Origin: Candidatus Hydrogenedentes bacterium ADurb.Bin170
GTDB taxonomy: Bacteria > Hydrogenedentota > Hydrogenedentia > Hydrogenedentales > CAITNO01
Assembly: GCA_002070275.1 (NCBI GenBank)
Contig: MWCY01000014.1
Span: 1-64,000, forward strand
DNA: 64,000 nucleotides
Direction of reading: 5' to 3'
A program made the position numbers and the translations under genes. The notes beneath the pieces are model-generated. The model made no database searches, was not told the DNA's origin, and saw only the letters and a list, made by a program, of their open reading frames with translations. Numbering within the stretch: position 1 is the stretch's first letter; every line of letters begins with the position of its first letter. This document shows positions 2,492 to 35,906 of the stretch, piece by piece.

Positions 2492-3610
2492 ATGATAAAA
2501 AGATCTGTATACATCCTGGCTGCGCTGCTATTGTGCGGCTTTGCACAGGGGCAGGATCCGCAGCAAGTCAATGTATCGGTAAAGATCATTGAATTTCAGA
2601 CGACGAAAGGCGCAGAAAGCGGAATCAGCGCCTATTTCAAGAAACGGATTACCCCGCGTCCCTACGGGCTTGTCTCCACGGGCCCGGGCATTATTGATGC
2701 TGCATCGCTGGCATTTCCCAATCGATCCACGGCGGGCATCACCCTTTTTCTTGATCAGATCAGCACCTATTACGGTGATATAGAAATGATTCTGCAGGCG
2801 CTGGTGGATCAGAACCGCGCCTTTATTCTTTCGCAGCCGAAAGTTATGGTTTCCGTAGGTGCAGCCGCCCCCACCATTATAAAAACCACGCAGGATGTAC
2901 CCTACGAAAACACGGTGGTTGTGGGGGTGAATGCAGTACAGACGACAGCGTTCCGTCCTACCGGCGTGACCCTCACGGTCAGTGCGCTTCAGGTGGTGGA
3001 TGATGACGGCAATCCCAATACAACGGAGGATCAGTATATCCAGCTGAAACTTACGGCGGAAATTAATGAAGAAGGTCAACGGATTACCATTGCTCTTGCC
3101 GATACTTTTGCGAGTACCGGTGCTGTCGTGTCCCGTTCGACCAATGCCATCAGCGTGCCTGAGTTTGTGTCGCGCAGTCTGGATACGACAGTCTGGGTCA
3201 AAAACAATCAGGTGCTGATCCTTGGCGGACTGTACCGCAATACGAAGAATAAAAACGTTTCGACCCTTCCCTGGCTGACACAGGGGGAAGATCTGGTGAA
3301 CAACACGCTGGAGCGCCTTTCACCCTTTTCGGAGACACCCGACATTCCGCTGACTTCCGCTCTGGGCAATAAGCGTTCTTCTGAAACCCGGCGCGAACTG
3401 GTCTTTATGGTGAAAGCGGATATCTGGCGTCAGGCTTTTACTTTGTACGAGGGTTTCGGCGCTCCCGGGGGAGAAGATGCGGCACCGGAAGAGGAAGGAG
3501 AGGAAGATATTGTGCATCCTACGCCTCCGTCCGGCTTTATCGGCAGTCTTTTCGGGGGATCAAATACCGTGCCGAGCGGCGTGAGCGACAGTCTTGGAGG
3601 GCGTGAATAA
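2492..3610 (+). CDS. Secretin-domain protein without N-domains (copy 1)
   Basis: The 372-residue protein has an N-terminal signal peptide (cleavage near AQG-QDP, about residue 20). The remainder resembles the type II/III secretion secretin C-domain: about residues 78-115 contain ILQALVDQNRAFILSQPKVM, followed by a region reaching VWVKNNQVLILGGLYRNTKN (about 230-250) and a final RRELVFMVKADI strand. The usual N0/N1/KH periplasmic domains are absent; ordinary secretins are 550-750 residues. The signature PxLGxxPxLGxLF loop is not intact here (PWLTQGEDLV occupies the region). The tail is acidic. It overlaps the next gene by 1 bp (TAATG) and is probably co-translated with it. AAAGGA abuts the ATG, an unusually tight spacing. 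Confidence 0.8.
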   Translation: MIKRSVYILAALLLCGFAQGQDPQQVNVSVKIIEFQTTKGAESGISAYFKKRITPRPYGLVSTGPGIIDAASLAFPNRSTAGITLFLDQISTYYGDIEMILQALVDQNRAFILSQPKVMVSVGAAAPTIIKTTQDVPYENTVVVGVNAVQTTAFRPTGVTLTVSALQVVDDDGNPNTTEDQYIQLKLTAEINEEGQRITIALADTFASTGAVVSRSTNAISVPEFVSRSLDTTVWVKNNQVLILGGLYRNTKNKNVSTLPWLTQGEDLVNNTLERLSPFSETPDIPLTSALGNKRSSETRRELVFMVKADIWRQAFTLYEGFGAPGGEDAAPEEEGEEDIVHPTPPSGFIGSLFGGSNTVPSGVSDSLGGRE

Positions 3611-13886: not shown

Positions 13887-13928
13887 GAGTTGCGTTCATT
13901 TTTGAAAATCGGTAATGGAGCATTTGCC

Positions 13929-16900
13929 ATGTTAACCCCCCCCGTTTCATTTTTTGTGCACTGCTGGCGCTGGTACTGGCAGGCAGTGTTTTGCCGGCGC
14001 ATGCGGCGGATTGCGATCCGGATACAACAAAACCTGTACTGACGATTGTACAACGGGAAGACAGGTCTTCGTATCAAAACTATCCCGGAGTATTTTCCGG
14101 ATGGTTTTATGATGCAGTTCCCTGCGGATCGGACTGGGCGGCTGAAGGGCCGTCTTCGATCAGCGCTCTTGACAATTGTGACGGGGCTGTTCCGGTCACG
14201 GTCGTGATTCACGATGTGCAGGTTGTCGGTATGTCGCCGGTTTTTACCCCTATTGCCAATTTAGGTCTTACAGAGAGTACCTGGACGACCCGGCCCGGCA
14301 TGTACCGGCTGATCTACAGCGCCAAAGACGGGGCAGGGAATTCATCAAGTGAGACAGTCGGGGCACAGGTGCAGGAAGGCTGCGCTGAAGAAGGGGAACC
14401 CGTAGAAGGCGAGCCCGTGGTAGAAGGTGAGCCTGAACCGGGTGCTCCAGTCATAACGATACAGCATCGGGAGGAAAACGGAGGTTATTGCAATATTTCT
14501 TTGCTTGATGAGCCTGTTTTTGTTTACGACTCAATAGAATGCGGAGCAGACTGGGCATCAGTAGGGCCTCTCTCTGTCACCGCTGTTGACAGTGATAAGA
14601 ACCCTCTTACTGTCTCAATGTTAGTTTATGTTTACATGTATGATTCAGAAAATAAAGTGCTGAAATTAGTTTCTGTTTCAAATCAGGAGCCCTGGACGGC
14701 GTCTTTCGGTTATTACCAGATACGGTACAAGGCGACCGACAGCGGAGGTAAGACAGCACAAGTGACAGTGATGGCGATTCCCAGGAGTTGCGAAACAGGC
14801 GGGGAAATTATAGGCTGCCATCCTTTTATAGAGAAGCCAATACTGGCAGTCCAGCAAAATATGGAATACTGCACGCGGGCAAGCGGTTCCAATCATTTTT
14901 TGTATACACTCGACTGCTGGGATGCCTGGGAATTTTTCGGTCCTGTAACTGCCTGGGGACTGGATATATGCCGCAACAAACTCGATGTTGTTACGCATGT
15001 TGAATTTTGGCAGGATAACGGCGATGCCGGAGCCTGGGAGCCTATCGAAACTCTGGGCCTTAATATGAACACCTGGAGCAGTCGGCCCGGTTCGTACCGG
15101 GTGTTTTACATGGTTACGAATGGTGACCCGAAAGGTGTCTGGGTGTCGCGCTATGTTATTGCCGATGTAGCAGACAATTGCACCTACTATTCCGGCGGAG
15201 CGGGTACTGAAGGAGATCCTTATCTTATCGCTAACGTGCGGGACTGGCGCCGGCTCATGCTGAGCGAAAGCGACTGGGATAAGCATTTCCGGGTGATAGC
15301 AGATATAGATTTAACCCAAGTCCATGTGTTTCCCGTAGGCAACGCAGATGTGCCCTTTACCGGCGTTATGGATGGTCAGGGGCATACGCTTTCCAATTGC
15401 GCAGTGGAGAATGTCGGCGGCTTTCAGAATAATGTCGGACTTTTCGGCGCCGTAGGAGGAGGGGCCTATATTCACAATCTGCATCTGGAGAATGCCAGTG
15501 TGCCGGGAAATCAGGGTGGGGGCGGTTTAGCGGGATCAGTGACTGAGTCCCGTCTGGAAAATTGTTCCGTATCCGGCATAGTAAAGGGCACTACCTTTAT
15601 AGGCGCTTTAGTCGGGCATGCGATAAACAGTGAGATTACTTCGTGTTCCGCCGACGCCGAAGTGGAAGCATCAGGGCATGCGGGGGTGCTCATAGGTGTT
15701 GCTGAGGACTGCGCCGTATCCTTCTGCTCCTCTGCCGGCTTGCTGGTCAGCTATACGAGTGCCGGCGGCCTGGTCGGCAGACAGGTTGGCGGTATTATTT
15801 CAGACAGCACCTCTGCTGCTGAAGTGCAAGGTTTCGAGGATACGGGCGGTTTTGTCGGGACAATGCAGGGCGGAGAGATCAGTCGGAGCACTGCGACAGG
15901 GAAAGTCGTGGGCACTTATGCGAATACAGGCGGATTTGTGGGACACATGAACCAGGAAGCAATGATCTTTCTCTCTTCTGCCAGCGGTCAGGTTGAGGGT
16001 GCCCTGGCCGCCGGTGGATTTGCGGGTAAACTCTATCAGGCAACTATCCGCCAGTCCTCAGCGGTCGGATCAGTAACAGGTGAGCAGCGTGTGGGCGGAC
16101 TGGTCGGTCAATTGCTTGAAGGTTTTGTCCGAAACTCCTATGCGAGAGGTTCAGCAAGTGCGCCTCTGCGCTATGCGGGCGGATTGATCGGAACGCTCAA
16201 CTACGGTACTGTAAAAAATTGTTACTCCACCGGCGTTGCCGAGAGTAATATTCTGCCGGGCGGATTGATCGGCTATTACATAAACGGCTTTGTGCAGCAG
16301 TCCTATTGGGACACTGAAGCCTCCGGCCTGGCTGCGAGCGGTGCGGGCGAAGGGCGCACGACTGAGGAGATGACCGCGCCCCATGCTGAAAACACGTATC
16401 TGGACTGGGATTTTGGAGAAATCTGGATTGAAGATACGGACGGCACCGTCAATGACGGGTATCCCTATTTGCATACAGGCGTAGTGGACATTGATGATTG
16501 TGACCCGGACATCACACCTCCTGAAATCAAGTTTGAGCATCGTCCGGAGAATTCGCAGTGGCTGGAAGATATCGGTTTCTATGTCTATACGTTGAATTGC
16601 GGTGATGACTGGAACGTAAGAGGACCCATTTCTGTGGAAGCAGTCGATAACTGCGCAGGTTATTTTTTGCTGCACTCAGAAATTCTGGGGCTGATTGAAG
16701 ACGAAGAAGAAAATCTGGAGCCGGTGCCACTGGAAGATCTGGGCGTGGATATCAACTCCTGGACAGGCAGGCCTGGTTTGTATGTGGTTAACTACTCGGC
16801 GACCGACATTTCGGGCAACAGTACGGAAGTGCACGTTCTGGTGCTCATTGAAGACAACTGCTATGTGCCTGAAGGGGAGCCAGTCGAAGGCGAAATAGAA

Positions 16901-19108
16901 GGCGAAGACGAATGCGATCCCGATGAAGCGGCGCCTGAGGTTGTGCTCAGCCACCGCAGTGACGGGAAATGGGATGCCGTGCGGGGCATGGTTGTCTATA
17001 AGATCGACTGCAGCGATTCCTGGAGCGAAAAAGGCCCCAGCAAAGCGAGTGCTGTTGACAACTGCGACGTGGATCTGGTGCCGGTAATGACTATAGCAGC
17101 TCTTATCGGTGGCCTCGAGGTTCCTCTGGAAGAAGCCGGTCTGGATCCGGGCAGCTGGACACGTGCCTTCGGCGAATATGTGATTACATATACAGCGACA
17201 GATCAGGCAGGAAATACGGCGTTTGAAAAAGTCGGTGCCCTGGTGGCAGACAGATCCGCACCCGAGATTCACATCGTGCAGGCGGATGCGAATGTTGCCT
17301 GGGACAATGCGGCCAAGCGTTTTGTCTACACACTGGAAGTGGGCAGTGACTGGGAGGTTTACGGGCCCAAATCCGTGACGGCTGACGATAAATGCGAAGG
17401 TGCTCTGGAAGTTACCCGGCAAATCTTTGTTCTGGTTCCCGGACAAAACGGAGAGAAAATCATTACCTTGGCAGAGGCGGGACTGGACGAAGAAAACTGG
17501 AGTCGCACGCTGGGTACCTATCTTGTCCGTTATTCTGCCGAAGACGCCTCCGGCAATATCGATACGGAATCTGTGGCGGTGAAGCTCAGAGATACGACAG
17601 CCCCGGTGGTTGTGGTGACAAACGGCGAAAACGGCAGCTGGTCGGATGATGAGGTGCCGGTTTTTGTTTACAGTCTGGATTGTCAGGACGACTGGGCAGC
17701 GAAAGGACCGATTGACGTTACGGCAACTGACAACTATGACGGCGATCTTCCCGTGACGACAGTAATTAGAAAACTGCGTCTGCGGAACGGTGTGTATATT
17801 GAAGAAACCCTGGAGTCGCAGGGTCTGAATGAAAACAACTGGACAGGACATCCCGGTCTTTATCTGATCCGGTATACGGCAGTGGACAGCTCGGGCAATT
17901 CCTCCACGGAATCAATCCGGGCTCTTGTGGAAGACCGCTCGGCTCCTGTGATTACCATTGTGCACCCGACAGCGGGCGGCGGTGAAGAACCCTATGTGTA
18001 TACGCTGGACTGCGGAGACAGCTGGGAAACGCATGGCCCCGTATCTGTAACTGCCACAGACCTTTGTGACGGTGACAGACCGGTTGTTTCCGTGATCACA
18101 ACAGCGGACGGAACCGGCGTGCGTGACGGCTGGACAAAGATTCCCGGAAATTACACAGCAAAGTACACCGCGACAGACAAGGCAGGAAAAACTGCCACGG
18201 AAACGGTGCAGATCGTGATTTCCGACAAAACAGCACCTGTAGTGACGATAGCGCATCGTCAGGGCAGCAGCTACTCGGCAGATGAAAATCTGTACACACT
18301 TAACTGCGGAGACCTCTGGATAAACATCGGTCCTGTGAGCGCATCGGCGTGGGATCAGTGTGACGGTGTCATTAGCAAAGTGACATCGGTGATTACGGCA
18401 CTGGTGCCTGCCGGCGAGGGGTACGAGGAAGTGAGTCTGGAAAGCCTTGGACTCAACAACACTACCTGGGTGCGCACCCCCGGACTGTACCTTGTCCGTT
18501 ATACGGCGAAAGATGCGGCGGGCAATGTGGGCACAGCGGTTACCCGTGCGCTTGTTGACGACAGGATCCTTCCAGTTTTCACGGCAACACACCGTGAAGG
18601 CAACGGTGTGTGGCTTGAGGCAGGGTTGTTCCAATACACCCTTGAGTGTGGTGCTGACTGGCGGTCTCAGGGTCCGTCCCGTGTTGTCGCTTCGGATAAC
18701 TGCGACGGAAGTCTCCCGGTGTCCTCTGTGGTGGAAGCACTGGTTGACGGAGAGACGGTTCCTGTTGCCGACCCGAACAGCTGGACGAGTGTTCCCGGAC
18801 TTTATGTTGTTCGCTACACGGCAACAGACCGATCCGGAAACAAAGCCGAGCTGCTGGTTCAGGCGCTTATTGCAGACTGTGACGAAGTCGAAGGCGAAGA
18901 AGAGGATCTGAGCTACCATCCCTTTGATGGAAATAATAATAACCGGATCAATGGTTTCGAAGCTTCGGACAGCATACGTGCCTGGCAGAACGGCGATTTC
19001 CCCATGGAATGGGCGCTTCGGGCGCTTTACATTTACAAGCAGGGTGGTGCTTATCATTATGATGATGCCTTTGACCCGCCGCTGTGCTGGGTGCCTGACA
19101 AGAGCTGA
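13929..19108 (+). CDS. Giant secreted Ig-like/GLUG repeat protein, start off-frame at a poly-C tract
   Basis: The main open frame encodes about 1,700 residues: three Ig-like repeats, a GLUG-type block (about residues 420-800, repeated GGLVG/GGFVG with turn cysteines and serines), then seven more Ig-like repeats. Each repeat carries YTLDCGDDW-, SVTATDNCDGDLPV- and GLYVVRYTATDxSGN-type motifs. Glu-Gly-Glu linkers (EGEPVEGEP) separate regions, and the C-terminus is an EF-hand/CWxP domain. A good GGAG site and ATG at 13929 are followed by eight C (13936-13943). Read as written, this frame stops after about 37 codons, whereas nine or six C would give a classic signal peptide (MLTP...ALLALVLAGSVLPAHA) fused to the large frame. 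In the large frame the first start-like codon is TTG at 13991, already inside the signal peptide. Either a phase-variable OFF state or an indel error explains this. The role is probably adhesion or cell-surface matrix. Confidence 0.85.
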
Positions 19109-35633: not shown

Positions 35634-35906
35634 TTGGTTCGGAGGGGCGAGTGCGTAAAGGAAATCAACGTCGCAGGCATTGAACCGGCCGAAAGCGAGG
35701 TAATCGAAAATGCTCACCCGGATGACGAAGATGGAGACGGAGTCATCACAGAAGAGGAAGCAGCGGATGCGCTTCTCCGCTGGCAGACTGAAGGCGGATC
35801 GATGGCAATGGCGCCGCGTGCTTATTATATCCATCTGTCAGGCGGCAAATACTGGTATGACAGCAGTGCGTCCGGATCGGAGTGCTGGCGTCCTCTGATT
35901 GAGTGA
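35634..35906 (+). CDS. Orphan copy of the EF-hand/CWxP C-terminal domain, possible gene remnant
   Basis: The 90-residue frame aligns without gaps over its last 63 residues to the C-terminus of the giant surface protein at 13929-19108 (about 23 identities: HPxD, EF-hand-like loop, EAxD, WQ, RAxYI, GGxY, YD, CWxP). The loop DEDGDGVITEEE is a textbook calcium-binding EF-hand. There is no signal peptide, and the only start in frame is TTG at 35634, located before the GGAGG at 35641. A GTG correctly spaced from that GGAGG (35651) is in another frame and stops after ten codons. So this looks like the tail of a lost larger gene or a frameshifted small gene, though a real stand-alone protein is not excluded. 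Confidence 0.5.
   Translation: MVRRGECVKEINVAGIEPAESEVIENAHPDDEDGDGVITEEEAADALLRWQTEGGSMAMAPRAYYIHLSGGKYWYDSSASGSECWRPLIE

Follow-up and report, generated by a model that had tools for sequence, protein, structure and literature searches.

A candidate surface-retention or docking module with a single calcium loop on exported proteins of Candidatus Hydrogenedentota

Described terminal modules and the calcium-loop domain

Type I dockerins are built from a duplicated F-hand motif and hence show internal symmetry (PMC4728124), while C-terminal signals of the exosortase and sortase type consist of a short motif, a membrane helix, and a basic tail (PMC11980579). We compared these systems with a domain of ~62 residues that occurs twice in a 64,000-nucleotide stretch of DNA from a genome of Candidatus Hydrogenedentota (the whole stretch is referred to here as the window), once at the end of an orphan reading frame and once at the end of a giant protein (Table 1). 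Like the type I dockerin (PF00404), this domain is a small calcium-loop module found terminally on many secreted proteins, with a helix directly after the loop, and its logic may resemble that of cellulosomes, where many proteins are recruited to one receptor. Unlike a dockerin, it has one conserved loop and an unrelated second half in which none is present (~105 copies). No match to PF00404 at E 0.001 was found among the best families listed for 87 carriers (for one list, the best 25 of 50), and neither the orphan nor the giant matched this model even at E 1. Likewise, a Foldseek search of the domain model against the PDB, where short models score weakly, returned nothing at E <= 0.001, with a double dockerin appearing only at E 6. 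In the literature, we found dockerins in Hydrogenedentes mentioned only in passing, and nothing on EF-hand and dockerin-like modules in Planctomycetes.

The domain shares with exosortase, sortase, rhombosortase, and MYXO-CTERM signals its recurrence as a terminal element on diverse exported proteins, and it replaces such tails on orthologous bodies; however, it lacks the succession of motif, membrane helix, and basic tail, and a quarter of its copies are N-terminal. The C-terminal domain of type IX secretion differs as well, being strictly C-terminal with a known profile, whereas the present domain has N-terminal copies and no NCBIfam or Pfam match. The resemblance to the EF-hand (PF00036) comprises a 12-residue loop conserved at positions 1, 3, 5, 8, and 12 and the helix that exits it, but the PF00036 score reaches 13.1 bits against a cut-off of 25.4. 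Sequence profiles matched EF-hand proteins of the PDB over the loop half only.

Conservation across ~105 copies is pronounced both in the loop (D1, 100%; N/D3, 96%; D/N5, 97%; E12, 98%) and beyond it, where W24, Y47, and W59 are invariant, Q25, A34, G44, P56, and C58 are retained in 92-99%, and an end motif of the form Y...P-x-C-W is conserved beside the EF-type loop. AlphaFold2 predicted a compact and confident fold for the orphan domain (mean pLDDT 94.9, pTM 0.82), with the loop followed by a helix (16-29), a second helix (35-44), a strand (48-51), a short helix (57-60), and a last strand (61-63). In this model a helix leaves the loop and none enters it, so it is not a helix-loop-helix. We infer from the loop residues that the module folds around bound Ca2+.

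Table 1. Positions of the two domain copies and their reading frames within the window
Feature	Position	Strand	Basis
Orphan frame, 90 aa, TTG start, stop TGA, domain at C-terminal end	35634..35906	+	
Terminal domain, orphan copy, 64 residues	35712..35903	+	profile score and AlphaFold2 model
EF-type calcium loop, orphan copy, DEDGDGVITEEE	35724..35759	+	read from sequence
Giant protein from first TTG, 1705 aa, GLUG and bacterial Ig-like repeats	13991..19108	+	
Terminal domain, giant copy, 64 residues	18914..19105	+	alignment and profile search

Copies in the window and across the phylum

The initial annotation had proposed that the orphan frame and the end of the giant match without gaps at about 37% identity, and this proved accurate: the frame is real, the last 64 residues of each protein are identical at 23 positions (36%) with zero gaps, and on re-reading all of the landmarks it had named (HPxD, the loop, EAxD, WQ, RAxYI, GGxY, YD, and CWxP) were correct. 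The ungapped BLOSUM62 score of the pair is 99, compared with a mean of -66 (sd 17) and a maximum of 25 among 20,000 shuffles. A profile built without both window copies gave 64.2 bits for the orphan and 76.5 bits for the giant, the top score for shuffled orphans against the same leave-out profile being 5.6 (n = 1000). The orphan carries a canonical 12-residue EF loop (D-E-D-G-D-G-V-I-T-E-E-E), and that of the giant is weaker (D-G-N-N-N-N-R-I-N-G-F-E).

The two copies differ in their surroundings. In the orphan, TTG is the sole in-frame start and a body is absent; a search by hydropathy found no signal-peptide-like stretch in it, nor did the frames just upstream (from 35506 onwards) or the neighbouring frames contain a carrier-like body. 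At the corresponding site of a same-genus genome lies a different gene, and the gene upstream is 87% identical between both genomes. At least three further copies (L025, L123, and L130) are likewise without a recognisable signal peptide. Most likely, the orphan is a stranded remnant, a copy without its former body, although it may instead be a small expressed protein. The giant, in turn, has a signal-peptide-like stretch just upstream of TTG 13991, inside an open frame beginning at 13916, and its domain is kept in a same-genus orthologue (L070). Within positions 13929-13990, eight consecutive C come after an ATG (13929) whose reading frame is not that of the body, and L070 starts in frame; we read this as either an assembly error in the homopolymer or a slipping tract by which expression is switched.

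A search of the home genome with a profile of both window copies, the check that the initial annotation had proposed, recovered 14 copies rather than these two alone. Searched by profile only, the home genome thus holds 14 copies, compared with 16 in a genome of the same genus and 52, 43-44, and 1 in three genomes of a sister genus; in the remaining 63 of the 68 genomes of the phylum, the profile of the 14 home copies found none at E 1e-4. When 84,980 species genomes were scanned, every locus kept belonged to Candidatus Hydrogenedentota, although remote relatives outside the phylum could be missed, as the scan patterns came from the sister genus (set A5, real copies only). The domain matched no model in Pfam or NCBIfam, with sub-threshold EF-hand hits only. 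The searched libraries contain no description of the family, whose kind is already known. On one contig (C501 of G016; L075 and L076), three carriers follow in succession and a fourth lies on the same contig, forming a local expansion cluster.

The expectation that one domain recurs on unrelated bodies was borne out by the 14 home-genome copies, which sit on diverse exported proteins, but the expectation that it is always C-terminal was not. C-terminal copies, ending no more than 19 residues from the stop codon, make up 80 of 107; another 26 lie near the N-terminus directly after the signal peptide, and one is internal, flanked by EGEGE linkers and a DUF3160 body, so that 27 copies stand away from C-termini, an outcome that the initial annotation had named as refuting its reading. 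A signal-peptide-like hydrophobic segment, called by a hydropathy rule rather than a trained predictor, was detected in all 26 N-terminal carriers and, among C-terminal carriers whose 5' end is complete, in 58 of 64. The bodies comprise FGE-sulfatase-like (15 carriers), GLUG, papain, beta-helix, PKD, subtilase, GH113, and sulfatase types. Hydropathy gave no sign of a membrane helix within the domain: over the last 63 residues of carriers, the best 18-residue window had a median of 0.52 and a maximum of 1.51. Among carriers with a copy that is not C-terminal, one only (in G003) has an additional anchor-like tail. The last 45 residues of this protein (L117) consist of EGEGE linkers followed by a CC...hydrophobic helix...R arrangement, resembling cysteine-type sorting tails.

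Terminal modules on orthologous proteases

For a first swap test, we removed the domain from a papain-type carrier (contig C12, locus L022) and searched the phylum with the remaining body. The orthologues recovered, 41-61% identical along all or most of the body, had differing terminal modules. Those of G000, G001, G013, and G016 end in the calcium-loop domain; those of G036, G029, G039, G034, G022, and G026 end in a double EF-hand domain with the pattern HSADQ...SELLRVIQF; and those of G006, G007, and G011 end in a hydrophobic stretch that is followed by basic residues in most cases. Partial homologues in G049, G059, and G047 have a hydrophobic tail as well. The same pattern was seen with another papain carrier (contig C44, locus L024): G000 and G001 each have one copy with the domain, and their own paralogues, as well as the proteins of ten other genomes, instead carry an Ig-like domain and a hydrophobic tail, often with LPxxG before the tail. 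Three such Ig-like/hydrophobic tails, compared with NCBIfam, either stayed below threshold against known sorting signals or matched nothing. Across the family, papain-type proteases (L304-L317, L328, and L329) show the same order of Ig-like domain, LPxxG, hydrophobic helix, and basic residues, and these tails are possibly an unnamed sorting signal, perhaps for an exosortase-H-like protein. In G008, a genome without the domain, a papain orthologue (L266) bears dockerin-like repeats and a cohesin-like stretch, with its frame running off the locus.

The double EF-hand module that occupies the same place on orthologous papains is itself a second undescribed terminal domain, with nothing beyond sub-threshold EF-hand matches in Pfam and NCBIfam. 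The evidence for it lies in the matches to our query, which reach up to 88% identity. It is C-terminal in the best ten loci. Some genomes of families f10 and f3 hold at least 77-82 copies each, whereas those of the home family seldom have it. In L240-L249, L268-L272, and L277, where it has the pattern HSADQ...SELLRVIQFxN, it shows two EF-type loops and conserved cysteines. Both domains occur C-terminally on exported proteins, and a profile comparison aligned them only over the 26 columns that surround the first loop (probability 87%, E 4e-6). The HSADQ domain differs in having two loops, several conserved cysteines, a second half without detectable similarity, and an expansion in other families of the phylum. 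The two thus have an EF-loop half in common and perhaps a role, but not a whole fold.

Since the calcium-loop domain stands where relatives have a membrane anchor or another calcium-loop domain, its role is probably surface retention. On the strength of these substitutions, the swapped modules may be functionally equivalent, although a swap falls short of proving equal function because terminal modules of unrelated function also shuffle.

Surface retention, docking, and other explanations

The reading we favour is that the domain is probably a lineage-specific, terminal, position-tolerant module for surface retention or docking, which shares the logic of a dockerin without being one. Signal peptides, as judged from hydropathy, would take the carrier proteins out of the cell; the module, folded on Ca2+, would then dock to a shared receptor, located either on the envelope or within a surface matrix, and would there do the job of the membrane-anchor tail or double EF-hand domain seen on orthologues. 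Of the initial suggestion of a sorting or docking domain, docking or retention survives through the swap with membrane-anchor tails on orthologous bodies, and the C-terminal sorting signal fails. The module would function at either protein end, and so would be a folded docking module rather than a processed C-terminal signal.

Identity among copies bears on the receptor. Mean identity between sister-genus copies on different bodies is 64-68%, a uniformity that would fit either a lineage-particular receptor or gene conversion; between papain orthologues of the two genera, the bodies are 55-59% identical and the domains only 34-37%. In the home genus, copies average 39% identity, and as a result a single common receptor is not obvious there. 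The copy in G003, which resides in a protein already equipped with an anchor-like tail, is a counterpoint to retention.

One candidate for such a receptor is a cohesin. If the module were dockerin-like with a cohesin partner, a small exported protein of the home genome (L028, contig C55) could act as an adaptor whose cohesin binds tagged proteins while its own tag docks. Its architecture of signal peptide, domain, and cohesin is suggestive: PF00963 is over the cut-off, the only such case in the home genome, the cohesin half of its structural model matches solved cohesins (best E 3.9e-8), and a protein of G001 has the same layout, its cohesin being sub-threshold. We nevertheless judge this adaptor scheme unlikely. 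Cohesins are found, irrespective of the domain, in 58 of the 68 genomes of the phylum, with none or one above threshold in genomes that carry the domain, and the module, with its one loop and no fold match, is no dockerin. The model of L028, folded without remote cohesins because adding them misaligned them, is of moderate quality (mean pLDDT 69.8) and uninformative on contact between domain and cohesin.

Alternatively, the domain could be a partnerless structural cap, stabilised by calcium at the end of long extracellular proteins and serving to protect or stabilise them. Its terminal position, compact fold, and frequent shuffling are compatible with such a role, as is the dissimilarity of the home-genus copies, but the domain replaces anchor tails on the same bodies, and the (nearly) invariant W24, Y47, P56, C58, and W59, together with uniformity across bodies within one genus, suggest a common partner; we therefore rate a cap as improbable. 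A C-terminal sorting or secretion signal, processed by a protease or read by a membrane machine, is very unlikely despite the predominance of copies close to the stop codon and an exosortase-H-like protein in the home genome above its family signature cut-off, because the domain region has no membrane helix and exosortase-like proteins (weak PF09721 matches) occur mostly in domain-free genomes, and it is further opposed by the N-terminal and internal copies and by membrane-tail paralogues that form a separate class within the same genomes.

The initial annotation had also advised looking for a membrane protease or transporter family that co-occurs with the domain. The single membrane-protease candidate was the exosortase-H-like protein, which we rejected as a dedicated partner since it is present in most genomes of the family with or without the domain. 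Its gene (L258, 3092-4066, minus strand) adjoins one for a small membrane protein (2517-3137, minus strand) without an NCBIfam match.

Returning to retention or docking, a wider and more tentative proposal, which we hold to be possible yet somewhat doubtful, is that surface display in Hydrogenedentota follows a cellulosome-like logic for a large part of the secretome, with unrelated single- and double-EF-loop modules replacing anchor tails by lineage, each with a lineage-specific receptor. If true, the new module would display proteases, sulfatase-type enzymes, and adhesins. Small Ca2+-dependent tags of this kind could find use in protein display, and the naturally occurring pairs of tagged and membrane-anchored orthologues would be suited to direct tests of surface retention. 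If right, retention or docking would also provide a sequence marker by which some of the surface proteome of an uncultured phylum could be recognised.
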